From Aestuariivirga litoralis (GTDB lineage Bacteria; Pseudomonadota; Alphaproteobacteria; Rhizobiales; Aestuariivirgaceae), in NCBI RefSeq assembly GCF_003234965.1, contig NZ_QKVK01000003.1, forward strand, positions 372,001 to 436,000: a stretch of DNA of 64,000 nucleotides, in the 5' to 3' direction. Under the pieces are notes generated by a model. It made no database searches. It was not told where the DNA came from and was given only the letters and a program-made list of their open reading frames with translations. The position numbers were made by a program, and so were the translations under genes. Positions 407 through 12,174 of this stretch are shown here, piece by piece (position 1 is the stretch's first letter; each line of letters opens with the position of its first letter).

Positions 407-1324
407 CTAAGCGACGGCTACGAAGGCAGAAAGCTTCTGCCGATAACTGAGTGCTTCTGCGATGTGTATGCGTGCAACCTCCTCGCGGCGATCCAGATCG
501 GCGAGGGTACGGGCCACGCGCAACACCCGGTGATAGCCGCGAGCCGATAACTTCATCGCGTCCGCTGCGTCCCTCAAGAGCGCGAGGCCTGCAGGATCCG
601 GCCGGGAAATTTCTTCGAGCAGTGCCCCGTCAGCCTCGGCATTCGTCCGAAGGTCAGGTTTTCCCAAGCTGGCAAAGCGGTTTAACTGGATCTGGCGGGC
701 AATCAGCACGCGCTTGGCAACGTCTTCGCTTGCCTCCTTCGGAGGTGGCAGGGCGAGATCGGAGGGCTTCACGGCCGCAAGCTCGATCTGGATGTCCATG
801 CGGTCGAGGAGCGGACCGGAAATGCGTGCCTGATAATCCGCAGCGCAGCGGGGGCCACTGCGACAGACATGCCCCGGCTGCCCCGCGTAGCCGCATTTGC
901 ATGGATTCATGGCTGCAACGAGTTGGAACCGCGCTGGATAGGTGACATGGTAGTTGACGCGTGCAACCACTGCTTCGCCCGTCTCCATTGGTTGGCGAAG
1001 GGATTCAAGAACGCGCGGCTGGAACTCTGGCAATTCGTCGAGAAAGAGCACGCCATGGTGCGCCAGGGCCATTTCCCCCGGCCTGGCACGAAGACCACCG
1101 CCCACAAGGGCTGGCATTGATGCGGAATGATGGGGCGCGCGGAACGGCCTGCGTCTGGACAACTGCCCGTTCGATAACTCTCCTGCCAGCGACGCCACCA
1201 TGCTGATGTCCAGCATCTCACGCGAATCCATCGGCGGCAGGATGGACGGCAGGCGCTGCGCCAGCATCGATTTTCCGGCGCCTGGCGGCCCCACCATCAG
1301 CATATGCGGAACAATAGGGACCAT
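407..1324 (-). pseudogene. comM: comM 3' part, displaced by mobile element
   Basis: C-terminal part of the Mg-chelatase-like AAA+ helicase ComM/YifB, which drives branch migration of the D-loop in natural transformation. The piece holds the Walker A loop (GPPGAGKS), the four-cysteine insert (MNPCKCGYAGQPGHVCRSG region) and the C-terminal domain ending near LSYRQKLSAFVAVA. Codons up to about 1300 are comM sequence; the ATG at 1324 and the next residues (MVPIVP) come from the inserted element. Joined to the 5' part at 11471-12115 through the shared CATCAG, the frame closes to 510 codons, the normal family length, without any frameshift. The gene is therefore interrupted, not decayed; excision would restore it. 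Without its N-terminal domain this fragment is unlikely to work alone. Confidence 0.93.
1295..1300. repeat. Left attachment core (attL), CATCAG
   Basis: The hexamer CATCAG occurs exactly where comM similarity ends on the left and again at 11471-11476 where it resumes. Flanking bases differ on both sides (C/C here, A/G at the right copy), so the direct repeat is exactly 6 bp. Large serine recombinases cross over at a central dinucleotide within a short identity of this size. Confidence 0.85.
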
Positions 1325-1448: not shown

Positions 1449-1904
1449 ATGACCGACGGAAACTCAAAGAGCTTGGCCACGCAGAACAGTTCGAAAGAGC
1501 TGGCTGATCCTGAGGCGATCAACCTAGGCCGCAGTGACATGCTCGATCTCTCTGGCCTCACGGATCAGCAAAAGGCTGAACTGAAGAAGCAATACGCTTC
1601 AAGCATGATAAGCATGAAGACGAAGGCCGAAGAACTAAAGATGGACGTTGGAGCACTAGATGCTGCCATTGGAAGCTTCACGGATCAGGCATCCAAGGCG
1701 GCACAATCGGGCATCAGTGCCACAATCTCCCACTCTCAGACCTCAACGATAGGTCGAACCGAGGTAATAGTTGGGAATACCGAAAAGGCTGCAGCTGGTA
1801 AGTTGACGAGAAGCGCACTCGGTGAGCAGGACAGAACGATCTGGATAGTCGCCATCATTGCTGTTGCAGTAATCGTAGTAGCGCTCCTAATCGTCAATCG
1901 CTGA
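1449..1904 (+). CDS. Tail-anchored membrane protein of unknown function (island operon, gene 1)
   Basis: 151 residues, not recognised. Most of the chain is polar, with a predicted helical middle (about 38-75, KAELKKQY...KTKAEELKMD) and a Ser/Thr-rich stretch before a single hydrophobic segment at about 131-149 followed by NR at the C-terminus. There is no N-terminal signal, so a cytoplasmic protein anchored by its tail is the likely topology. First gene of a coupled operon: its stop overlaps the next ATG as TGATG at 1902-1906. The third gene of the operon has the same tail-anchor design, which suggests that both sit together at the inner membrane. Function is unknown; context with two nucleases suggests a sensing or scaffolding role (inference). 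Confidence 0.7.
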   Translation: MTDGNSKSLATQNSSKELADPEAINLGRSDMLDLSGLTDQQKAELKKQYASSMISMKTKAEELKMDVGALDAAIGSFTDQASKAAQSGISATISHSQTSTIGRTEVIVGNTEKAAAGKLTRSALGEQDRTIWIVAIIAVAVIVVALLIVNR

Positions 1905-2206
1905 TGTGGAAAAAGACCATCAGAATATCCAGCCTCGAAGAAGCGCAGAACGCAATAGCAATATTGCCAAGGCTCGTCTCTGAAGCTGGACTTCCGACCG
2001 CTGAAGCCTCTCTTCTTGAAGATCAACTGGTTACAGTGTTGCACTTTGTGGAAACGCAGTTCCGCCGGGGTAGCACAAAGACGCTTCGTTTTAAGCGCCA
2101 ACTTGAAGGCGACAGGTATCATGTCACAGTTATGGCCGGGCCTCCCGCAGCGAACGGCGTGTGGGGGTTAATCTCCAAATTGATACCCGGCAATAGGAAC
2201 GGCTGA
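1904..2206 (+). CDS. Small soluble protein of unknown function (island operon, gene 2)
   Basis: 100 residues with no recognised domain, no signal and no strong hydrophobic segment. The N-terminal half looks helical (SLEEAQNAIAILPRLVSEAG), with a charged middle and a Gly/Pro-rich end. The start codon overlaps the preceding stop (TGATG), and the next gene starts with TTG one base after its stop, so translation is probably coupled on both sides. The tight packing argues that it is a real gene and that its product is made in proportion to its neighbours. It may be an adaptor or an immunity-like partner, but nothing in the sequence proves this. Confidence 0.6.
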   Translation: MWKKTIRISSLEEAQNAIAILPRLVSEAGLPTAEASLLEDQLVTVLHFVETQFRRGSTKTLRFKRQLEGDRYHVTVMAGPPAANGVWGLISKLIPGNRNG

Positions 2207-2207
2207 C

Positions 2208-3059
2208 TTGTCGCGTCGATCCTATCGTTCGCGCTATAGACCCGCGAGCAATCCCGGCTGGGAAGCCGCGAGAAAGCATATCGAAGAAGCCCAGGAGTTC
2301 TCTGAAGAACTTGGAGGCCACGACGAAGATGTGAAGGACTATTTTTTTGGCCTCCGCGGAGCGCAACTCGAAAGGGTCTTGACCGAGTACGGTCGGCAAT
2401 ACGGTTCCGATAAGGAAGCATACGCGCGAGCCACGATGTCTAAGTGGAAGTCGGGCAGAACGCAGATGTCTGGCCTTGTAGCAAAGAGGCTGTTCAGCTT
2501 GCTTCCGGAGTTGATGCCCTTAGACAAGAAGTTTGAACTCGCTGGCAATCTGTGGAGGTTCTTCGGCCCCCAATCCCAACACAGCTACGTAATTGGTCCC
2601 GAGACCAGCATCACTGAAATTGAAAGCATTGTAGCTGCGCGTCTCTCTCAAGTAGTCTTGCAGTATCAAGTGCCTGACAACCTGAAGAAGCGGTTCTCGT
2701 GGCTTGCGAAGGGAGATGTCACGCTAAGCGAAAGGATGCTCAACCACTTCCGCCAGCAAGAAAAGGAGTTGGTTCTTGATAAGCTTCGTTCAGAACTGCC
2801 CGTCCTGCAACGCCACATGAGGGAAAGTGCTAACTTTACGAAGTCTATGAAGCAGACACTGACTCTGCAGAAACATACTGTTGAGGTATGGCTTGATGCG
2901 AGCGGAGGGGCAACAGTTCGCGAAGGCTCGCTGAAGCCAGCCTTCTTTTTCCGTTCAGCTAAGAGTGGCACAGGTATCTCTGAGGGAGGTTGGGATAACC
3001 TCGGATTCTTTGGTATAGTGGGGATCATCATCCTCATTCTTGTCCTGATCAGCAGGTAG
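2208..3059 (+). CDS. Second tail-anchored membrane protein, unknown function (island operon, gene 3)
   Basis: 283 residues starting at TTG 2208; no ATG gives a better start and the TTG follows the previous stop by one base. The first ~120 residues are a charged helical domain with motifs such as GHDEDVKDYFFGLRG, an ATMSKWKSGRTQMSG stretch and a LLPELMPLDKK stretch. A second helical part follows (about 140-225). The C-terminus has a single hydrophobic segment at about 265-281 ending in SR. I do not recognise the family. The architecture (large cytoplasmic domain plus C-terminal anchor) mirrors gene 1 of the operon. It directly precedes a membrane-tethered nuclease gene, so a membrane complex is a reasonable guess. 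Confidence 0.68.
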   Translation: MSRRSYRSRYRPASNPGWEAARKHIEEAQEFSEELGGHDEDVKDYFFGLRGAQLERVLTEYGRQYGSDKEAYARATMSKWKSGRTQMSGLVAKRLFSLLPELMPLDKKFELAGNLWRFFGPQSQHSYVIGPETSITEIESIVAARLSQVVLQYQVPDNLKKRFSWLAKGDVTLSERMLNHFRQQEKELVLDKLRSELPVLQRHMRESANFTKSMKQTLTLQKHTVEVWLDASGGATVREGSLKPAFFFRSAKSGTGISEGGWDNLGFFGIVGIIILILVLISR

Positions 3060-3067
3060 AGACAGAG

Positions 3068-3658
3068 GTGAGATCATCCACAGTGCCACTCATGGCGTTT
3101 GGAGCCGTAGTAGGCGTTGGAATCATAGCACTCGCAATAGGTAGCGGGCATCGAAAGGATCAATCTCAATCGTCAATAAGCGATGTCACGACGAACACCA
3201 CTGGTGGAGTCGAGGATTCAACCGTATTCACCGGAAACAGTGGTAGTCCAAAAGGACGCGCGGTCGTAGTCGATGGTGATACCCTAGACATCGACGGCAA
3301 GAGGATTCGCTTAATTGGTATAGATGCAGTCGAGTCATCTCAGAGATGCAAGCTCGACAACGTTGAATGGGACTGCGGATCAGATGCAGCAGACGCTCTA
3401 CGGAATTGGATAGGCGACAGCTTGGTGTCCTGCAAGGGTGGTGAACATGATCGCTATTCTAGGCTGCTGGCCCATTGCTCTACCCGAGCGGACGACATTG
3501 GAGCGTGGATGGTATCCAATGGCTGGGCTGTAGCGTATCGGCGTTATAGCGACGAGTATGCTAATCTCGAGGACACCGCAAGAGAGGAGCGGCGAGGTAT
3601 CTGGCACTCCCAATTCGAGATGCCTTGGGATTGGCGACATAGGAGGAAGGCACAATGA
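3068..3658 (+). CDS. Membrane-tethered staphylococcal-nuclease-like protein (island operon, gene 4)
   Basis: 196 residues from GTG 3068. A hydrophobic segment at residues 7-25 acts as signal anchor, followed by a Ser/Thr-rich linker (30-60). Residues 64-180 are a thermonuclease (SNase) fold: VVDGDTLDIDG, then RIRLIGIDAVES with the expected catalytic Arg81, Asp86 and Glu89, and a DRYSRLLA segment (127-134) that supplies the second active-site arginine. All key residues are present, so a phosphodiesterase active on DNA or RNA is expected, facing the periplasm if the anchor inserts N-in. Four cysteines (94, 103, 122, 137) may form disulfides there. Overlaps the next gene by ATGA. Secreted SNases are often nutritional; here the operon context suggests attack on incoming nucleic acid (inference). 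Confidence 0.85.
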   Translation: MRSSTVPLMAFGAVVGVGIIALAIGSGHRKDQSQSSISDVTTNTTGGVEDSTVFTGNSGSPKGRAVVVDGDTLDIDGKRIRLIGIDAVESSQRCKLDNVEWDCGSDAADALRNWIGDSLVSCKGGEHDRYSRLLAHCSTRADDIGAWMVSNGWAVAYRRYSDEYANLEDTAREERRGIWHSQFEMPWDWRHRRKAQ

Positions 3659-4161
3659 TAGCTGAGCCACAGCTGGAAAGCCTATGCGCGTCTTTAGACG
3701 ATTCTGTATGCTTTGAAGCCTTAGTGACTGGTGATGTCCATTGGTTCGCCGACTGGCCCTGTGGCGATGTTCCGCGTTCTGGCTCTATCGTGTATTCGAT
3801 CTGGAATAGAAGCCTTGAGTTCATCTATGTCGGAATGTCCGGCAGAGGGCCTACGGTAGGTGGCGGTCAGAAGAAGGGGCCGTGGGGACGCATTAACAGC
3901 CATGCGAGCGGAAAGAGAAGTGGCGATCAGTTCTGCGTCTATGTTCATGACTTTCTAGTCATCCATTCACTTCACAATCGCCTCGAGGAGGTCAAGATGC
4001 GCACACTGAGCCTTGATCAAGCGACCCGATCCTACATTCGTGAAAACTTCGGGTTTCGATGGATGGCCGCCGCAAGCGGAACGGAGGCGTTAAGGATTGA
4101 GCGCCTCATCCAGCGTGGCAAATCTCCTTTAGGATTGCCGCTGCTCAATCCTCTACCTTGA
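3655..4161 (+). CDS. GIY-YIG-like nuclease (island operon, gene 5)
   Basis: 168 residues. The middle fits the GIY-YIG fold: IVYSI (45-49) for GIY, IYVG (57-60) for YIG, GRINSH with Arg79 and His83 on the first helix, Glu149 in ALRIERL as the metal ligand, and Asn165 in LLNP near the C-terminus. Lengths between motifs fit single-domain GIY-YIG enzymes. There is no signal peptide, so it is cytoplasmic. It overlaps the SNase gene by ATGA, making two structurally unrelated nucleases in one transcript. The family includes homing, restriction and repair nucleases; the target is unknown. No DNA-binding appendage is obvious apart from the N-terminal ~40 residues. Confidence 0.75.
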   Translation: MIAEPQLESLCASLDDSVCFEALVTGDVHWFADWPCGDVPRSGSIVYSIWNRSLEFIYVGMSGRGPTVGGGQKKGPWGRINSHASGKRSGDQFCVYVHDFLVIHSLHNRLEEVKMRTLSLDQATRSYIRENFGFRWMAAASGTEALRIERLIQRGKSPLGLPLLNPLP

Positions 4162-4227
4162 CTGTAGACAGCGACTACCAGAACGTCCTCGCCTGTTATT
4201 CAGTTTTCTGCGCCCGTTGGAGATCAC

Positions 4228-5379
4228 ATGAAGGACATGTTCGCAACTATTTCTGATTTGAGGCATCTGGTGTTTTCGAGAGTTTGTCGGATCGTTATTC
4301 TAGCCAGTGTGTCCCTGGCATTCGGATTGCAAACCGCTCTAGTTGTTCAGTGTGCAGAGTTTTCGGTCAAGGAGGTGCGGAATGTCCTCAGCAAATCCGC
4401 AAGTAAAATCGATCACTACATATATCTGGATGGGCGAATTGAAAGCGGTGACTTGGTGAAGTTTAACTCAGCAGTCAGAGATGTATTTTCACTGATCAAG
4501 AAGGAGCAGGACTTTTCGAGTGACGCCCCAATTCATGACGTCAACGAGGACAACTGGATTAAGCTTGTTCTTAACTCGGACGGTGGAGACGTTAGAGAAT
4601 CGATGGCCATTGGTCGCCGGGTTCGAGAATTGATGGGCGAGACCAATGTATACGGCACCTTGGTTTTGCTGAGGTCAGCACCATCATCCAAAAAAGAATT
4701 CGATCAGCAGTTAGAGTGGCCGGACTTCTTTCCCGCCATGGTCGACAACGCTCAGGAAGGACCCCCGCTATACAAGCACTGCTACAGCGCATGCATACTG
4801 ATCCTCGTTGCTGGTGTACAGCGTTTTGCTGCCAGCAATATAGATGAGACAGGTTGGAATGCAGAAGACGCTACTGGCGAAAAGAAGATTGTGCCGACAC
4901 TTGGTCTTCATCGCCCATACTTCGCGAAGGAGGAATTCGCGAAGCTAACAGTGAAGGACGCCGCGCAACAATTTCATGATCTAGAGCAAGACGTTTCTAA
5001 ATACCTAGTTGAAATGGGTGCATCTCAGTACATGATCGATCGAATGATGGCGACCAACTCAGAGAGCATCGACCTCGTCGAGGATGATGACATTAAGAAG
5101 CTATTTCCTTGGCGAGATCCATTTTACGAAGAATGGATCATTGCGAAGTGCCAGGGATATGAATTGAGTGCGGAGGACAAGGCCACGTGGGAATGGTTCA
5201 ATAAGGAATGGTCAAAGACTAGAGGAGAGGTTCCGATCGAGAACTTCATTCCAAAGGGTATGACCGCGGACGAAGCAAAGAGCATCCTTCAAAAGGAAGG
5301 AATTCGAAACACAGGCATGCAGGGCTGCGAGTTCCGTACGAGAACAGCTCAGCAGGAGTCGATCCTATCCGCTAATTGA
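4228..5379 (+). CDS. Secreted ClpP/crotonase-fold protein (COG3904-like)
   Basis: 383 residues with a hydrophobic segment at about 22-40 read as a signal peptide or anchor. The core resembles periplasmic ClpP-like proteins: YLDGRIESGD (66-75), LVLNSDGGDVRESMAIG (113-129) with the glycine pair of the oxyanion region, HCYSACILILVAG (184-196) with candidate nucleophile Ser187, and LGLHRPYF (225-232) with candidate base His228. The C-terminal 150 residues are acidic and helical, with lone Cys residues. It lies 66 bp after the nuclease operon on the same strand and may share its transcript. Proteolytic activity is inferred from fold and residues only. Similar proteins are common in alphaproteobacteria with no assigned role. 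Confidence 0.7.
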   Translation: MKDMFATISDLRHLVFSRVCRIVILASVSLAFGLQTALVVQCAEFSVKEVRNVLSKSASKIDHYIYLDGRIESGDLVKFNSAVRDVFSLIKKEQDFSSDAPIHDVNEDNWIKLVLNSDGGDVRESMAIGRRVRELMGETNVYGTLVLLRSAPSSKKEFDQQLEWPDFFPAMVDNAQEGPPLYKHCYSACILILVAGVQRFAASNIDETGWNAEDATGEKKIVPTLGLHRPYFAKEEFAKLTVKDAAQQFHDLEQDVSKYLVEMGASQYMIDRMMATNSESIDLVEDDDIKKLFPWRDPFYEEWIIAKCQGYELSAEDKATWEWFNKEWSKTRGEVPIENFIPKGMTADEAKSILQKEGIRNTGMQGCEFRTRTAQQESILSAN

Positions 5380-5465
5380 CATCGCAATCTCTACTCCCGC
5401 CTAACTGGTTGCAGGCCGTCAATAGCCAGTATTCGCGATGAGGAAGACCCACGCAGACAGACCTC

Positions 5466-7367
5466 TTAATGCTTAGTGAGATAGGTCTTTGCTGAGCGCC
5501 CTCGTCCTTCGGAGACGTAAGTCACGCCTATGGTTGAGAGCTGATCCACGAGTCCTCTGCCTTTCTTCAGTGCATCCTTGATTCTTGCTATCTCTTTTGG
5601 TTGCAACTCGAGAAGAGTGACAACGTCCGAGACAGAATAGCGGCCGGGTGGCTGACCTTTCAGGTAGCTCACCAACGCTGCGTTTGCATTTCTTGGTGTC
5701 CATTCAGTTGGCACCGCTGAGTCGATTGAATACTGCCAATGCTCCATATGTAATCCGGTAAACTCACTGCGGATATATGTCTCTATGGCTCGCCCAATAC
5801 TATCATCAGGAAGTGTTAGATACGCCGTAGTCGGCAAGCAGTTGCCCGCGCTGTCACAGACCTTCCGGCTCTGAGGACGGCCGAGGGCTTGGATGATCTG
5901 AGCGGCCATCGCCTTGCTTTCAAGATCACGCCGGATGCTCGCTCGCTCTCCGTCGAGCTGGTTTGCATCATACTCACTCCCGGCCAGTGCAGTGTGTAGG
6001 TTTAGCGCCCATGCGGGATCACGGTAACTCAGGCCGAACAGAACTACCTTGTTGCAGTCACGATAGTCGTTCAAACCGTCCAGTGCGCCCCAATGAGCGA
6101 TGGTGCAGCTGTGTGACGGGAGATGAAGCTGGGCCACTGCCTCAGTGTCCTTGTGGACAACGACAAGCCAGTGATCTCCTTCGGCAGTATCACTTCGAAT
6201 GAACTGACCGAGACGCTGCATACGAGCGGTGGCATTCTGCTTCATCGCCTCCTTACCAAGACCTGTCTGCCTGAGAACTCTGAGCGTGAGGTTTCGGTAG
6301 TTTCGCACTCTCGGAAGCGGCACCAAAGTGGCACCGAGGTAATCCAGAAGAATGTCTTGTCCAGCTGTGGCATTGAGAAGAACGGGACACCATAGACGAG
6401 GAAGCCTGACCTCGCCAGCAGCAGCACTGACTTCCCGGCCCTTCTTGACATAAGTAGCCCACCGCCGGAACAGAAGAACAATGGCATCGAGTATGTCTGC
6501 GACCTTCGCGATCTCCATCTTCCGCAATTGAGGATCGTTCCAATAGCTGTTGCTCTCGTTCCGCTTGATCTTCCTCAGGTCACTCACCAGTGTAGTGAAC
6601 AGATCCCTGATGCCTTCCGCTATCTGCTTGTCATGGGGACCCAGGCCTCGCCAGAGTGCTGCCATGCTATTCTGACTGCTAGACATAGCCACCAGACGAT
6701 CATGCAGTAGCTTGATGAACTCGTGAGCCTGTAAGTGCTTCGCCTTCAAGTCCGGGGGTATCTGGGACAGTACATACTGTAGCTTCTCCACGGTAACCGA
6801 TGCAACGGTTGTAGCGCTGACCAGAGCCTCATCTATGACAGTGAGTACGCGGTCACCGCCTTGCCATGTCAGGTATTCCTTCAGCAACCTGTTGCGAAAA
6901 CCGTCGTCGCCATTGGTGAGCGCGGCGTGAGTGATAACCAGCACCGGATGCCCATAGACATCGTCAACTGTGGCTTCGTTCTCAGAGTGTCGCGTGATTG
7001 CGGCGGTATATCCCGCATGACGGTTGATCGATGAGACTGCCTCCTCACACTGCCGGATAGTTCTGCAAGCGAACATGGCTCCTAACTGAAGCGGAGGAGG
7101 ATGCTTGCGTATCTCCCGCGCCATCATGCCAAGATAGAGACATGTTCCGAAGGTCTTCCCAACGCCCATCTCTGGCGACAGGACCAGCCATGGCGGTGGC
7201 TCCTGTATCAGCAGAGGATCGTGGGACATGCTGGCCTTGATGGCTTCAATGAAGGTGTCGGCCATCTTCGACCAGACCAGCCTGAAGCCGTCATTGCAGT
7301 GGTTACCAAGGTCTTGCGTCCACAGACGCGCCATCTCGGTCACAAAGTCGGCACTGGCTACAGGCAT
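5466..7367 (-). CDS. SF2-type helicase/ATPase with C-terminal winged-helix-like region
   Basis: 633 residues. Motif I PEMGVGKT at 65-72, motif II VIDEA at 177-181, a motif III-like LNATAG at 331-336, a motif V-like region VLFGLSYRDP (442-451) and motif VI QIIQALGRPQSR (490-501) identify a superfamily 2 helicase or translocase. The order and spacing are complete. The last ~90 residues (YSVSDVVTLLELQPKEIARIKDALKK...) resemble a winged-helix domain. The start ATG overlaps the upstream gene's stop as TGATG, so the two proteins are co-translated. No nuclease domain is visible in this chain. A role in element replication or in a restriction-like defence is possible; the sequence does not decide between them. 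Confidence 0.75.
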   Translation of the reverse strand: MPVASADFVTEMARLWTQDLGNHCNDGFRLVWSKMADTFIEAIKASMSHDPLLIQEPPPWLVLSPEMGVGKTFGTCLYLGMMAREIRKHPPPLQLGAMFACRTIRQCEEAVSSINRHAGYTAAITRHSENEATVDDVYGHPVLVITHAALTNGDDGFRNRLLKEYLTWQGGDRVLTVIDEALVSATTVASVTVEKLQYVLSQIPPDLKAKHLQAHEFIKLLHDRLVAMSSSQNSMAALWRGLGPHDKQIAEGIRDLFTTLVSDLRKIKRNESNSYWNDPQLRKMEIAKVADILDAIVLLFRRWATYVKKGREVSAAAGEVRLPRLWCPVLLNATAGQDILLDYLGATLVPLPRVRNYRNLTLRVLRQTGLGKEAMKQNATARMQRLGQFIRSDTAEGDHWLVVVHKDTEAVAQLHLPSHSCTIAHWGALDGLNDYRDCNKVVLFGLSYRDPAWALNLHTALAGSEYDANQLDGERASIRRDLESKAMAAQIIQALGRPQSRKVCDSAGNCLPTTAYLTLPDDSIGRAIETYIRSEFTGLHMEHWQYSIDSAVPTEWTPRNANAALVSYLKGQPPGRYSVSDVVTLLELQPKEIARIKDALKKGRGLVDQLSTIGVTYVSEGRGRSAKTYLTKH

Positions 7368-8143
7368 CAGCGGGAACCTTGCTTCACAGGGAATGGTAGC
7401 TTTTTCAGAATGCGCTTGGACTTGTCCTTCAGCCGCTGCTTGTGATGGGTCAGGAGCGCTTCCATGTGGTCGTGAATGACGAAATCAGCTGCGTCCTCGG
7501 CCTTCTTCCCTACCTCCCTCAACACAAGGCCCTCGCTGGCGACATACCAGCTGATGACCTTTTCCTGGGGGAGTGTGCAGTCAGTGTGGTGGGTAGGCCA
7601 CCGCTTCGTCTGACCACCGGCCATACGGCCCAAGACCTTGGCGATCTGGACCTGCCGATACTCCTTCTTGCGTGTGTCGCGGTCGGCAGCATTACACATG
7701 GCGGTGCCAATGATAGCGGCCAAAACCTTGCCGGGTGGCGCAGACTGTTCCCTGAGCCTTGCCCACATAGCGTTAGCCTTAGTGGCTGGCGTTGCACCCT
7801 TCAGGTCCCTGACTTCGATGTTCCGTCCCCCATTCCTCATCAGCCCCTCGACCTTCTGCAGGGCCAGCTTCACGTGGCGATGGTCAGCGTTGGCCTTCAG
7901 CCATGACGCTGCCGAGAGGCGGTAGGGATTGACCTCGGTGGCCTTGTAGGACGGTTTCTCCGGGTCCCCATGTCTGCGGTGGTGTTCTAGATGGCGGCGA
8001 CAGAAGCGACCCAATCCATCCCCAGATGCATTGCCGGGTGGGTTGCGGCACCCGAAGACCCAACAGTGGCGTCTTCCATCTTCCCTCGTGTTCTTGAGGC
8101 GATTGCGGAGGTCTTGCTTACGACGCTGTCGGTCTAGCGGCAT
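7367..8143 (-). CDS. Zinc-finger protein of phage/HNH-associated type, coupled to helicase
   Basis: 258 residues. The N-terminus shows a Cys/His cluster (CWVFGCRNPP at about 27-36, then GLGRFCRRHLEHHRRHGDP) with the C-x4-C ... C-x2-H plus GDP spacing common at the start of phage HNH-type or DNA-binding proteins. The rest is basic and helical with no recognised catalytic motif; an HNH core is not evident. It ends in the TGATG overlap with the helicase gene, so the pair is probably a functional unit. It may recruit the helicase to DNA. The start at 8143 is taken as annotated; the next Met is far inside. Confidence 0.6.
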   Translation of the reverse strand: MPLDRQRRKQDLRNRLKNTREDGRRHCWVFGCRNPPGNASGDGLGRFCRRHLEHHRRHGDPEKPSYKATEVNPYRLSAASWLKANADHRHVKLALQKVEGLMRNGGRNIEVRDLKGATPATKANAMWARLREQSAPPGKVLAAIIGTAMCNAADRDTRKKEYRQVQIAKVLGRMAGGQTKRWPTHHTDCTLPQEKVISWYVASEGLVLREVGKKAEDAADFVIHDHMEALLTHHKQRLKDKSKRILKKLPFPVKQGSR

Positions 8144-8280: not shown

Positions 8281-8294
8281 TACTTCGCCCGAGA

Positions 8295-8849
8295 TCAGAA
8301 GTTGGCCTCCTTGATGGCCTTGTAGACCCCCTGTCGCGTCACCCCGAAGTGGCTGGCGATCTCCGTCATGGTCTTGCCCTCAGTCTTGAGCTTCTCGACT
8401 GTAGCGAGGTCAATCTTCGCCTTCCCGCCCTTATACACACCCTTGGCCTTCGCGGCCTCAATACCAACCTTCTGGCGCTCCTTGATAAACTGGCGCTCCA
8501 TCTGAGCTACCATGCCAAGAACGGTCAGTATGATCTCGCCCGTGGGTCCTGAGGTATCGATGGCAGGAGAGAGGACCCTGAGGCTGGCTCCCTTCTGCTT
8601 TAGCTCATGGACGATGTTGAGGACGTCGCGCGTGTCGCGGCCAAGCCTGTCGAGCCGCACTACGACAACCTGGTCCCCGGGCCTCAGAAAGTCGAGGATG
8701 GTCTGAAGCTCGGTGCGCCCTTCCCTGCTGGCACCGCTCACCTTCTCTGCGCGGATGACTGTGCAGCCCGCAGTCTTCAACTCAGCCTTCTGAGTGGCGA
8801 GGTCTTGATCAGCGGTGGAGACGCGAGCGTAGCCGATGACGGTAGACAT
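8295..8849 (-). CDS. Small serine recombinase (resolvase/invertase family)
   Basis: 184 residues, the classic Tn3-resolvase/invertase size. YARVSTADQD carries catalytic Ser11; VVVRLDRLGRDTRDV carries the active-site arginines; the E-helix (ILTVLGMVAQMERQFIKERQ) is present. A C-terminal helix-turn-helix (MTEIASHFGVTRQGVYKAI) binds DNA. It cuts and rejoins short recombination sites by a Ser-phosphodiester intermediate. The 110 bp upstream hold six copies of a hexamer that could be its res site. It is distinct from the large recombinase at the island's right end and could be a resolution or inversion module from an older transposon or plasmid, or a multimer resolver for an excised circle. Confidence 0.93.
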   Translation of the reverse strand: MSTVIGYARVSTADQDLATQKAELKTAGCTVIRAEKVSGASREGRTELQTILDFLRPGDQVVVVRLDRLGRDTRDVLNIVHELKQKGASLRVLSPAIDTSGPTGEIILTVLGMVAQMERQFIKERQKVGIEAAKAKGVYKGGKAKIDLATVEKLKTEGKTMTEIASHFGVTRQGVYKAIKEANF

Positions 8850-8852
8850 CTA

Positions 8853-8962
8853 GTTGACCTCCTGTTGTCAACCCAGCCTCTAAAACCTCTGACATTGCTT
8901 GTCAACTCGAATTGAAACTGACCCTGAGTTGACGGTCTAAGCGTCAACTACGAAGCGTCAAC
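8853..8962. promoter_or_regulatory. Cluster of six GTTGAC/GTCAAC hexamers: candidate res site and operator
   Basis: Copies start at 8853 (GTTGAC), 8867, 8901 (GTCAAC), 8928 (GTTGAC), 8943 and 8957 (GTCAAC). The first pair forms an inverted repeat, the 8901/8928 pair another in the opposite sense, and the last two are direct repeats 14 bp apart, each in the context GCGTCAACT. Position directly upstream of a resolvase gene and a three-pair layout match the general design of res sites (subsites I-III), which also act as the resolvase operator. The region is also the divergent promoter zone for the Abi-like gene. Confidence 0.6.
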
Positions 8963-9046
8963 TGAAGTATACCCCGTGTTTACAACACGAACTCACTTCC
9001 TCTACGGAAGGAACAATCTATTCTAAATTTTAAATGGAGATTTGGA

Positions 9047-9856
9047 ATGTCTGACCAACCACTTCCCGGTAGGCTATTCAGCAGAAACTACCTCATTCCC
9101 GATAAAAAGGCTTCCGACAGCAAGAGAGCCAGGACACGGTTCGGCGCCTTATTGAGCGAAAGCCCCTTGGGTGACAAGTTTGCGAACCTGGTGACAAGGG
9201 AGTTGGGTGTCCGCTACCCCTACGGGTACGGCTGGAATCACACCAAGTTCTTTGATGAGTGTGAGCTGAGGGACTTCTTGGATGCGATCACGCTGTTCAT
9301 TCAGTTAACGAAAGCCGAAGGTCGATCTAGCATACTTCCACAAGCCACTCGAATACTAGCCGAAGAGCATCTGCGATATGCCCTAGATAGTGAGGGTGGC
9401 GTTCATTATCTGGTAGATGAGGTATTTGAACGTAGTGTGATCACCACACTTCAAGGCCTTGGCGAAACTCGATTTGGAGCTGCTCTTCATGACCTCCAAG
9501 CCGCTCTATCTGAGTTTAGTGGTCCAACTCCTAGCGGGAAGGCGCTAATCCATAAGATGTTCCAAGCGGTGGAGTCCACATTCCTAGTTATCGCCAACGA
9601 CCCATCCATAAACAGGATCAGCGACTCAAACCTTGATAAATACCTGAAGCCATTGCTCCTCGCTCGCTACAAGGATTATCCTGAGCGAGCAGATAAGACA
9701 GATAGAATACTCAAACTCTTCGGAGCGTGGATTCACACGGCGCATCCCTTTCGACATGGAGCTCCGCTCGACCAGGTGCATGAAGCTCCGATCGACTATG
9801 CAGTATCGATTGCTGATCAGGGAATGGCCTTCATACGCCTAATGGTTTCGAAGTAG
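9047..9856 (+). CDS. Putative abortive-infection (HEPN/Abi C-like) protein
   Basis: 269 residues, largely helical, no signal peptide. The C-terminal part (LFGAWIHTAHPFRHGAPL, then about 25 helical residues to the end) resembles Abi C-terminal/HEPN-like domains, in which an arginine-histidine pair in a helix is the RNase active site; here the candidate pair is in FRHG. The N-terminal part has a YPYGYGWNHTKFF segment before a helical bundle. The gene stands alone between two recombinase genes, divergent from the resolvase, a usual position for defence or addiction cargo. Similarity was judged by eye and is weak, so the RNase assignment is tentative. A purely structural DNA-binding role cannot be excluded. 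Confidence 0.45.
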   Translation: MSDQPLPGRLFSRNYLIPDKKASDSKRARTRFGALLSESPLGDKFANLVTRELGVRYPYGYGWNHTKFFDECELRDFLDAITLFIQLTKAEGRSSILPQATRILAEEHLRYALDSEGGVHYLVDEVFERSVITTLQGLGETRFGAALHDLQAALSEFSGPTPSGKALIHKMFQAVESTFLVIANDPSINRISDSNLDKYLKPLLLARYKDYPERADKTDRILKLFGAWIHTAHPFRHGAPLDQVHEAPIDYAVSIADQGMAFIRLMVSK

Positions 9857-9870
9857 GGCACGGGGGAACA

Positions 9871-9905
9871 ATCCCGACGACATTCTATCGATGCTTCTTC
9901 GGGAT
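9871..9905. terminator. Possible bidirectional terminator between convergent genes
   Basis: ATCCCGA at 9871-9877 pairs with TCGGGAT at 9899-9905 across a 21-bp loop, in the 73-bp gap between the Abi-like gene and the convergent large recombinase gene. Stem is short and lacks a clear U-run, so the call is weak. Confidence 0.3.
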
Positions 9906-9929
9906 TTCGCACCAAACATTGGGCCCCCC

Positions 9930-11435
9930 TCATTCCTCCTCAGGCCACCTGAACATCACTTCCGTCCTGCCTCCGTTCTTCCAGTGGAACTCAAGCTCTC
10001 CAGTATTCTGTCGCAAGATCACCTTCTCCAGTAACTGCCGAAGTAGCCTGTTCACCTTTGGCCTATCGAGTGGCTGTTCCGTCAGCGCATCTCCTAGGAG
10101 GTCTATCCGGGCCATCATCAAGGCCGGTTCCTGTTCTTCGATCTTCCTCTGAATCTGGTCTCGTCTTGTCTCAGCATCAACCAGAGCAATGTCTAGTTCA
10201 GCCAGAGTGGTTCTTAACGTCGAACTCTTGGTTTCTCGGAGATTGTCCAGCATGTCAGCAATACCTGTAATCTCTGCCTCAACTTTTGCAAGTTCACTAC
10301 CGAGGCGATCATCACTGGCGAAGCGTTCAAGCTGAGCGAATGGATTCAGGTGAGCGACAATAACATCTTCAACCGGCTGGTAGCGAACAGCGCGGTACTG
10401 ACATCCAGCCGAGTTCTTTGCTCTCTGGCAGATCAGATAACGGTCCTTATCGGACTTCTTGATGTAGACCATCGGTCCATCACAAAGATCGCACTTACAG
10501 AGGCCACTGAGGACGTTCTGAAGATCGCCTGATCCCGCAGCTCTCCCCCTTATCGCGGCACCTTTCGCTGTCGCTAGTCGTACTTCTTGCCAGAGCTTCT
10601 GCGAGACGATGGCAGGATAGTAGTTCTCTACTGGTTCTTGAGGTCTTCTAATCCTCTTGCCGTTCACATGCTCGATCAGGTGAGGTACATAGGTTCCGAT
10701 AGGTGCATCTGAGCGCAGCAACTTCGCGACTGTGGACTTGTGCCAATGTGCAGCGTCGTTGAGGGTAGTGACGTTCTCTCTATTCAAGACCTTAACGACT
10801 TGGTTCTGTCCCATACCCTGGGCCGTCATCTCGTAGATGCGCCTCACGATCTGAGCCTTGTCATCGATGATCTCAAACGACTTTCGGTCTTCATTCAGTC
10901 TCAGCCAAGATGGGCATCGCTTGGTGAGCTTCATCTCTCTTGCTTTGGCTCTCTTGTTTGACCAAGCGGCTCTGACTCTCCTGCCCTTGGTTAGGCTCTC
11001 CTCATGTGCTCGGACGGCCACCATGAACGCGACCATGAAGCTGATAGGGTCCTCATCGATGTCTTGAATGGTATAACGCTTGCCATCGTTCAGAGTGACT
11101 ACCGTGATGTCCATCTCACAGATCCGCTCCAACAATCTCACGGCTTGCCGAGGCTTTGCTCGGCTGAGCCTGTCCAAGCTCTCAATGAGAAGGAAGGAGC
11201 CTCTGGGGATTACGCCAAGTTTCACGGCGTCTATAAACTCGGCAAGGTGCCCTGTCTCTGCGTTCGCTCCGCGATAGGCCGAGACACCAAGGTCCTGATA
11301 GCTGACATCTTGGAGATTGAGGCCATTCCGTGCGGCATAGTCCACTGCGAGGGAGTACTGTCTCCGGAGGCTGTCTCCCTTGGACTGTTCGGGAGTGGAG
11401 AAGCGTTGGTAGGAGTAGGCGTGGGTCTTGCTCAT
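9930..11435 (-). CDS. Large serine recombinase (integrase of the island)
   Basis: 501 residues with the full domain order: N-terminal catalytic domain with Ser13 in QRFSTPEQS and LIESLDRLSR arginines; recombinase domain (about 170-290); zinc ribbon with Cys315, Cys318, Cys336 and Cys345; then a coiled coil (about 375-445, ELAKVEAEITGIADML...) and C-terminal tail. Such enzymes integrate DNA between attP and attB and need a directionality factor to excise. The gene starts at 11435, about 35 bp from the right-hand core at 11471-11476, so it almost certainly catalysed insertion into comM. No recognisable directionality factor was identified; those are small and very diverse. Confidence 0.95.
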   Translation of the reverse strand: MSKTHAYSYQRFSTPEQSKGDSLRRQYSLAVDYAARNGLNLQDVSYQDLGVSAYRGANAETGHLAEFIDAVKLGVIPRGSFLLIESLDRLSRAKPRQAVRLLERICEMDITVVTLNDGKRYTIQDIDEDPISFMVAFMVAVRAHEESLTKGRRVRAAWSNKRAKAREMKLTKRCPSWLRLNEDRKSFEIIDDKAQIVRRIYEMTAQGMGQNQVVKVLNRENVTTLNDAAHWHKSTVAKLLRSDAPIGTYVPHLIEHVNGKRIRRPQEPVENYYPAIVSQKLWQEVRLATAKGAAIRGRAAGSGDLQNVLSGLCKCDLCDGPMVYIKKSDKDRYLICQRAKNSAGCQYRAVRYQPVEDVIVAHLNPFAQLERFASDDRLGSELAKVEAEITGIADMLDNLRETKSSTLRTTLAELDIALVDAETRRDQIQRKIEEQEPALMMARIDLLGDALTEQPLDRPKVNRLLRQLLEKVILRQNTGELEFHWKNGGRTEVMFRWPEEE

Positions 11436-11464: not shown

Positions 11465-12115
11465 CTACAACATCAGGAGGTGGTGACCTCCCGCTGCCGC
11501 TACTTCCAGCGCACGCTTGCCCATTTCCTGGCCCTTGATATCCCTGAGATCCGGAAGTTGCTCGGCTTCGGTCGCAACCACAGGCTTGGGACGGGTGAGA
11601 ACCTGCGTGCCGCGCACATGGTTGATTAGCTGGATGAGGTTTTCCGGCGCCAGTATATCCGCATCTTCGGCGGCCCAAGCCGCCTCCGGACCCGACACTC
11701 TGGGGCAAATCAGACCCATGTCCCGCATGTTGGCTGCTATTGCCGCCGGCAATACCCCTGAAATGCCCATCAATGCGCCGTCGAGTGCCAGTTCACCCAT
11801 GGCGACATAACGGGTCAGGAAGTCCTGTGGGATGATTCCCAGCGCTGCCAGCACCGCGAGCGTGATGGGAAGATCGAAGTGGCTCCCTTCCTTCGGGAGA
11901 TCAGCGGGGGACAGGTTGACGACAAGGCGCTTTCCCGGAAGCGCCAGACCGATGGCATGGAGCGCCGCACGTACCCTTTCACGGCTTTCCGCTACGGCCT
12001 TGTCGCCAAGTCCTACGACGTTGAAGGCCACCATGCCCGACAGGAACTGTGCCTGCACATCGACCGGCACGGCTTCAATTCCCTGAAAAGCTACCGTCGC
12101 TGCTCGTGACGTCAT
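11465..12115 (-). pseudogene. comM: comM 5' part, truncated by mobile element
   Basis: Encodes the first ~215 residues of ComM: N-terminal Lon-like domain (FNVVGLGDKAVAESRERVRAAL, LPGKRLVVNLSPADLPKEGS) and linker up to GQEMGKRALEVAAAGGHHLLM, the point just before Walker A. The reading frame then meets island DNA and stops at TAG (11465-11467) after one extra codon. Start chosen at ATG 12115, preceded by AGGAGG at a 7-base spacing; an upstream ATG at 12154 lacks this. The fragment lacks all ATPase motifs. If ComM is needed for transformation in this host, recombination during natural transformation should be reduced while the island is in place. Confidence 0.93.
11471..11476. repeat. Right attachment core (attR), CATCAG
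   Basis: Second copy of the 6-bp core. It sits beside a perfect imperfect-free stem GGAGGT/ACCTCC (11476-11491, 4-bp loop) that is part of comM and would form one arm of attB. The codons involved specify HHLLM just before the Walker A motif, a strongly conserved protein segment. Confidence 0.85.
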
Positions 12116-12174
12116 CTGAAATCCTCCTGAACCTGACGTTACAGGAGGTTGCAAATTCCGTCAAAATGTCAGAA

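Follow-up and report, generated by a model that had tools for sequence, protein, structure and literature searches.

The 64,000-nucleotide stretch of the Aestuariivirga litoralis contig NZ_QKVK01000003.1 analyzed here (positions 372,001 to 436,000; hereafter the window) contains a five-gene operon at positions 1449–4161. Its first three genes (ORF1, ORF2, and ORF3, together the trio) form a real, mobile and recurrent module; about half of its loci also encode a linked nuclease that is apparently exported. The three proteins represent unannotated families, with no match above cut-off in Pfam, NCBIfam, PADLOC, or the PDB. In the window the nuclease is a member of the SNase family, encoded by the fourth gene, and the fifth gene encodes a 168-aa GIY-YIG-like protein (Table 1).

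A preliminary description, made from the sequence alone, had read the operon as five tightly spaced genes for two tail-anchored proteins, a small soluble protein, a membrane-anchored SNase with its catalytic residues and a GIY-YIG nuclease, located on a mobile island. The ORF calls bear out the coordinates, overlaps and gaps (Table 1), and the hydropathy peaks agree with the layout, at residues 131–149 of ORF1, 264–282 of ORF3 and 6–24 of the SNase, with none in ORF2 or the 168-aa protein. Among the five proteins the SNase alone scores above the Pfam cut-off (PF00565, E = 2.7e-14, 53.9 bits against a cut-off of 21). Its residues D69, D71, R81, D86, E89, and R132, which are taken to be catalytic by analogy with S. 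aureus nuclease, are invariant in seven sequences, and its only PADLOC match is to the SNc+LTD model (E = 3.4e-8). A promoter and terminator scan gave values within those of shuffled sequences.

The same description had recognized no named system in this combination, and the hidden Markov model searches that it proposed for the three unannotated proteins uphold this. There was no PADLOC match to ORF1, ORF2, ORF3, or the 168-aa protein at E ≤ 1 and no NCBIfam match to the trio at 0.1, and PHROGs gave a single match for the trio, to ORF3 (E = 0.04). When 12 proteins from each of the ORF3 and ORF1 families were scanned against Pfam, only single members matched, the best no better than 0.005, and profiles of ORF3, ORF1, and ORF2 searched against PDB sequences gave no credible relative. 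The literature searched, with subscription papers and preprints largely outside it, held no recognizable account of the trio with a nuclease in its accessible parts. No paper in it has both "SNase" and "anti-phage" as whole words, and none of the terms looked for occurs in the DefensePredictor paper (PMC13092281).

ORF3 has 22 invariant residues in 14 sequences (median pairwise identity 38%, highest 68%). It carries a membrane segment in 14 of 15 cases, C-terminal in 13 and internal in L015, with none in L023 (L-numbers denote loci, G-numbers genomes). The AlphaFold2 model of ORF3 (mean predicted local distance difference test score, pLDDT, of 79.6; predicted template modeling score of 0.65) comprises a helical domain, predicted for the most part with high confidence, together with a region of strands that is less certain and a helix at the tail, and Foldseek found no match to it in the PDB or BFVD at E ≤ 0.001. 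In L015 (3226–5007), ORF3 runs approximately 315 residues past the membrane segment in what looks like three repeats of a small beta-rich unit; this extension, expected to lie outside the cytoplasm, has no Pfam match. ORF1 has a conserved motif, GRTE-[VI]-[IV]-[MV]-GNT, directly ahead of a C-terminal membrane segment that is present in all 14 proteins tested; L012, L018, and L060 are not part of this hydropathy table, and its L023 row is ORF1-like by layout only. The low-confidence model of ORF1 (mean pLDDT 62.3) shows two helices, a hairpin and a tail helix. ORF2 is recognized mainly by place, size and layout, being of similar size and in the same place across loci, with no membrane segment in any of 13 proteins. 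In pairwise tests the L006 relative is significant (BLASTP E = 4e-6) and that of V. harveyi is not (E = 2.0). A hairpin domain shared among the three proteins is not claimed (hhalign probabilities of 2 to 20%, pairwise E-values of 0.001 to 0.02).

Fifteen loci with readable flanks were compared: the window, L003, L006, each of L010 to L020, and L060. Left out were L008, whose contig ends after ORF1, L009, with the same printed proteins as L010, the divergent L023, and L004, with ORF3 alone. ORF1, ORF2, and ORF3 are contiguous and in the same order in all 15, with gaps of −8 to +55 bp in 14 of them and L060 read separately. The loci come from several bacterial phyla and include a conjugative plasmid as well as phage-like contigs, and because the trio recurs in such distant genomes it is more than a chance arrangement. 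ORF1 is reduced to a C-terminal piece in L012 and L018; this piece stands behind an integrase-like frame (by eye) in L012 (3456–5185) and downstream of a terminase gene in L018 (9600–10207).

Screening 84,980 species genomes for the ORF1 motif produced 38 pattern matches, of which 11 were confirmed; being a pattern scan, it gives a lower bound. Profile searches added G655 and G938. Taxa named for the relatives found are Roseovarius, Leucothrix, Granulosicoccus, Immundisolibacterales, Planctomicrobium, a Thermodesulfobacteriota metagenome-assembled genome (MAG), Sphingomonas, an unplaced bacterium, Oceanibacterium, a Pelagibacteraceae cell, and an Anaerolineaceae MAG. The printed proteins of L009 and L010 are identical in two MAGs titled Leucothrix and Granulosicoccus, which reflects either recent transfer or a binning error. 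In overlapping samples, and with the genome of the window counted where it belongs, the trio was found in 2 of 367 genomes of the order, 2 of 385 of the class and 1 of 398 of the phylum, ORF3 in 1 of 69 of the family, and the ORF1 pair in 1 of 299 of the phylum. Among six genomes of the family of G655, G655 alone was found again.

Searches of plasmids with four ORF3 sequences returned the same two records each time, both typed as conjugative: a V. harveyi plasmid (L003), with ORF3 and ORF1 by tblastn and an ORF2-sized gene between them, and a Thioalkalivibrio plasmid with an ORF3 relative without ORF1 and ORF2. ORF2 itself had no match among plasmids. Viral contigs yielded L006 and L007 (on one contig), L019, and L020; neither ORF3 alone nor the alignments A2 and A1 found anything there, A4, A9, A7, and A14 led to the L006 contig, and A14 also to L019 and L020. 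The phage records held no match to ORF3 of the window or of L020. The divergent L023 arrangement (8294–10885) contains an ORF3 relative (E = 2.1e-26) and a tail-anchored protein at 9110–9406 whose likeness to ORF1 is one of layout only (BLASTP E = 0.024). Another candidate for ORF1 there, at 10234–10470 (phmmer E = 1.5e-4), reads as an unrelated antitoxin-like protein and was rejected. After the anchored proteins of this locus come genes resembling a VapBC pair by eye.

An SNase gene overlaps the trio or lies within 26 bp of it in 7 of the 15 loci, or 6 of 14 without the window. It stands before ORF1 in L006, L010, L013, and L014, and after ORF3 in the window, L012, and L060, with an ATGA overlap between the ORF3 and SNase genes in L060. 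SNases are common in the order (99 matches in 41 genomes, 40 of which have one). With the SNase rate taken from this one order, 4,000 genes assumed per genome and a crude model of random gene order, the binomial chance of such adjacency is approximately 1e-14 for 6 of 14 loci and 3e-17 for 7 of 15. In a tree of the 7 linked or same-island SNases with 31 others, 3 changes were counted against a shuffled mean of 6.6, and 1 of 500 shuffles was as low.

Elsewhere the nuclease is more distant or of another kind. L016 has an SNase approximately 7.4 kb upstream of the trio and L019 one approximately 2.5 kb downstream, and in L020 a PLD protein (PF13091, E = 2.3e-28), whose N-terminus is of the export type, is encoded 48 bp after ORF3 on the opposite strand. 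An N-anchored 178-aa protein of L023 (9402–9938) resembles PD-(D/E)XK nucleases by eye; it has no Pfam or PDB support for this assignment and serves as a lead only. Of the 10 nucleases that are adjacent to the trio or nearby, counting the putative one of L023, 9 have an N-terminal hydrophobic segment over the limit, with that of L016 just below.

The identity of the 168-aa protein as a GIY-YIG nuclease could not be confirmed. Its Pfam matches, PF20815 (E = 0.098, 13.1 bits) and PF01541 (E = 0.39, 11.5 bits), fall under the respective cut-offs of 22.4 and 22.6, the motif residues VY, YVG, R, E, and N were read by eye, and no relevant PDB relative was found by sequence. The other loci (the 13 first compared, L019, L020, L023, and L060) contain no relative at E ≤ 1, and neither do the plasmids, viral contigs or phages searched. 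Of 385 genomes two gave a match, one being the window itself and the other a match over 42 residues in a frame that contains a stop. The neighborhood survey that had been proposed therefore came out differently for the two nucleases. The anchored proteins do recur beside an SNase in other genomes, on mobile elements, whereas no relative of the 168-aa protein was found beside the trio elsewhere, and the suggestion that the system characteristically has two nuclease folds is not supported. The 168-aa gene is a local add-on rather than part of the trio core, and the conserved unit is ORF1-ORF2-ORF3 plus one nuclease in about half of the loci.

The operon lies at one end of an approximately 10.2-kb serine-integrase genomic island, which is real, as first described. 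The island contains an integrase gene and splits comM (Table 1), its [G + C] content is 0.531 against 0.637 downstream, and the target is unsplit in relatives as judged by the length of their frames. Counting that of the window, 33 of 37 genomes in the genus have a comM match; frames of 510–531 aa occur in 22 of the 32 others, and the matches mostly start at residue 7 of the window piece. The frames of G006 and G020 have only 304 and 311 residues. As G035 (locus L061) carries another island at the same comM site, with a homologous integrase (E = 5.4e-132) and no copy of the operon, the site is reused with changing cargo; within the genus, the genome of the window and G035 have comM interrupted at one position by different islands whose serine integrases are homologous. 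A scan for repeats at the island ends started at position 1300, so that the left CATCAG copy was outside it, and found no shared word of more than 6 bp.

Table 1. Positions of the operon genes and of the features that delimit the island in the window.
Feature	Position	Strand	Description
CATCAG	1295..1300	+	presumed left island end; by eye; also at the comM junction of L061; six bases could be chance
comM, 3' part	407..1324	-	YifB-type Mg-chelatase; Pfam Mg_chelatase E = 1.3e-79; own open frame of 313 aa
ORF1	1449..1904	+	151 aa; tail-anchored; trio core
ORF2	1904..2206	+	100 aa; soluble, C-terminal end amphipathic-looking; trio core, fast-evolving; 1-bp overlap with ORF1
ORF3	2208..3059	+	283 aa; TTG start; tail-anchored, conserved helical N-terminal domain; trio core; 1-bp gap from ORF2
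SNase	3068..3658	+	196 aa; GTG start; N-terminal membrane anchor; 8-bp gap from ORF3
Putative GIY-YIG nuclease	3655..4161	+	168 aa; 4-bp overlap (ATGA) with the SNase gene
Large serine recombinase	9930..11435	-	501 aa; presumed island integrase; PHROG 95 integrase E = 8e-77
comM, 5' part	11465..12154	-	translation ends ...GGHHLLML at junction; matches L061 comM 5' part, E = 9.8e-132
CATCAG	11471..11476	+	presumed right island end; by eye

Among the remaining island genes, a 383-aa protein with a signal-like start (4228–5379) is encoded 66 bp past the operon. It has a weak ClpP-related match under the cut-off (NCBIfam head maturation protease, E = 0.0022) and no relative among the 13 loci compared first. 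A gene pair follows at 5466–7367 and 7367–8143, the larger member helicase-like by eye, with no weighty family match in Pfam, NCBIfam, or PHROGs.

At other loci the trio is likewise found on mobile elements and near known defense genes, which supports the reading first given. Phage packaging genes (terminase or portal) are present in L018, L019, and L020, the portal of L020 just under the cut-off. Neighbor ORFs numbered 157 in 15 loci, L060 not among them. The PADLOC scan, at 1e-8, covered the 150 of 14 loci that remained once the 7 of L011 were set aside, and these include three nearby nucleases, those of L016, L019, and L020. The scan matched 98 families, 25 of which were listed. Among the matches listed are PD-T4-5 in L003 (6.5e-68) and HerA (2.9e-303) and SIR2 (2e-222), placed in L016 by Pfam, where the SIR2-HerA pair sits between the SNase and the trio (3255–6541). 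HEC-09 is among the matched families, in a tally that does not give the matching member. A rescan of ten neighbors identified Ppl in L019 (4.7e-45) and PDC-S64 in L018 (8.9e-51), and a neighbor in L010 is an Mrr-type nuclease (PADLOC 2.9e-15; Pfam Mrr_cat 2e-23), apparently membrane-anchored by eye.

Starting from the computed conservation of the trio, its SNase linkage and its mobile and defense-gene settings, we infer complex formation, topology, target and order of events. We give roughly even odds to the operon being a mobile defense (superinfection-exclusion) module that cuts DNA at entry; some role in the conflict between mobile elements or phages and their hosts is more likely than defense at this particular stage. 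ORF1 and ORF3 would be inserted by their C-terminal tails and, with a peripheral ORF2, would form an inner-membrane complex. Since both are anchored at the C-terminus and lack a hydrophobic segment at the N-terminus, their main parts should lie in the cytoplasm. On the other face of the same membrane would sit a nuclease, usually an SNase, that is exported and tethered there. The N-terminal anchors or signal-like starts (e.g., L060, by reading) place the nuclease domains probably outside the cytoplasm, and the SNase in the periplasm. The core would detect or hold foreign DNA, in the likeliest case that of a phage on its way across the envelope, and the nuclease would cut it before or during entry. 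What the core may hold, sense or slow is either the incoming DNA or the proteins that carry it. The host chromosome would be spared with the nuclease outside the cytoplasm, and an unspecific nuclease would therefore be tolerated. SNases require calcium, which the enzyme would also find there. The GIY-YIG-like protein of the window island could act as an extra cytosolic nuclease. More tentatively, and at well below even odds, the module may represent a class of immunity not described before, in which the trio, tail-anchored and facing the cytoplasm, would command an exchangeable nuclease across the inner membrane. Invading DNA would be shredded in the periplasm before its transit is complete, compartment alone would separate self from non-self, and SNase, PLD or another exported nuclease would serve as interchangeable blades.

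Several observations weigh against this proposal of entry-stage defense. The core domains and the nuclease appear to lie on opposite sides of the membrane, with their coupling unexplained. The SNase is not adjacent in 8 of the 15 loci, and in L003, L011, L015, L017, and L018 no nuclease partner was recognized in the available flanks. The linked SNases cluster but do not form one clade, with poor tree support, and unlinked SNases of the order also often have N-terminal anchors and four cysteines (by reading); because of the latter, the cysteines were dropped as proof of a periplasmic site. Six of the ten rescanned neighbors have no PADLOC match at 1e-5 (including that at 9047–9856 of the window), the L014 NACHT protein reaches only 1.8e-7, and the window island genes scanned besides the operon gave no convincing defense match. 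The absence of PADLOC matches among 42 control ORFs from 12.2–64 kb of the window comes from a small control on one chromosome, with a library that includes candidate systems.

The trio could instead be a membrane-damaging or signaling complex triggered by infection, with the nuclease as killing or clean-up effector. The conserved stretch of ORF1 adjoining its membrane segment, a hairpin in the low-confidence model, would suit such abortive or toxic action, as would the defense-gene neighbors and a nuclease that varies or is missing between loci. The linked nucleases look exported or anchored, however, which is a poor place for cutting the host's own chromosome, and no toxin family above cut-off matched the trio, so that we regard this as unlikely. 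Somewhat less probable still is a barrier to conjugation or DNA uptake, by which a plasmid or island would exclude competing elements rather than phages. Both plasmid records are typed as conjugative, and the island disrupts comM, a gene that acts in natural transformation; yet the trio is also found in contigs with phage packaging genes, and the named neighbors include anti-phage systems.

It is slightly more doubtful again that the trio is the whole system on its own and that the SNase, PLD and GIY-YIG-like genes are unrelated nearby cargo. The eight loci without adjacent SNase and the failure of the linked SNases to form one clade are what one would expect of cargo, but the overlapping or near-zero spacing occurs in two gene orders, with the very low chance computed without the window, and includes the ATGA overlap of L060. 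A housekeeping envelope or nucleotide-scavenging complex captured by mobile elements seems highly improbable: SNases are common in the order, as such a complex would have it, whereas the trio is rare and patchy at every rank sampled, from family to class. We retain cutting of DNA at entry as the working model for the operon.

The closest known system is SNIPE (PD-lambda-1), which according to its description is a single polypeptide with an N-terminal transmembrane segment, DUF4041 and a GIY-YIG domain facing the cytoplasm, a third of its homologues having no predicted membrane segment (PMC13190303). It is, from the same source, the only worked-out case known to us of a nuclease that hits phage DNA at entry (PMC13190303). 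The operon may work like SNIPE: each has a membrane-localized nuclease, in the operon presumed to act where DNA enters, and in each an anchor serves, in the operon presumably, to keep the nuclease off the chromosome. The operon differs in consisting of four or five separate proteins, with an exported-looking SNase as the main nuclease. We reject it as a SNIPE system, since none of the five proteins matches DUF4041 in Pfam at E ≤ 1 and no protein combines a GIY-YIG domain with an N-terminal membrane segment, the 168-aa protein having sub-threshold matches and no such segment.

Two other membrane systems share part of this logic. Zorya reportedly combines an inner-membrane core that is conserved with effectors that can be exchanged, nucleases among them, and in this logic of core and effector the operon would be alike. 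The PADLOC library is said to hold ZorA and ZorB models, and its ZorD model came up in this analysis, whereas ORF1, ORF2, and ORF3 have no PADLOC match. Kiwa is described as a membrane complex at phage attachment sites with no nuclease; the operon is similar in its proposed membrane complex and has no PADLOC match for proteins other than the SNase. The three unannotated families of the trio are directly testable, together with the SNase, as a four-gene cassette. If the proposed function is correct, this mobile and modular assembly of several proteins, with its nuclease exported, would be a second way to separate self from non-self by place. By sequence the fourth gene belongs to the exported SNase family PF00565, and what sets it apart here is that it is tied to a three-gene membrane core.

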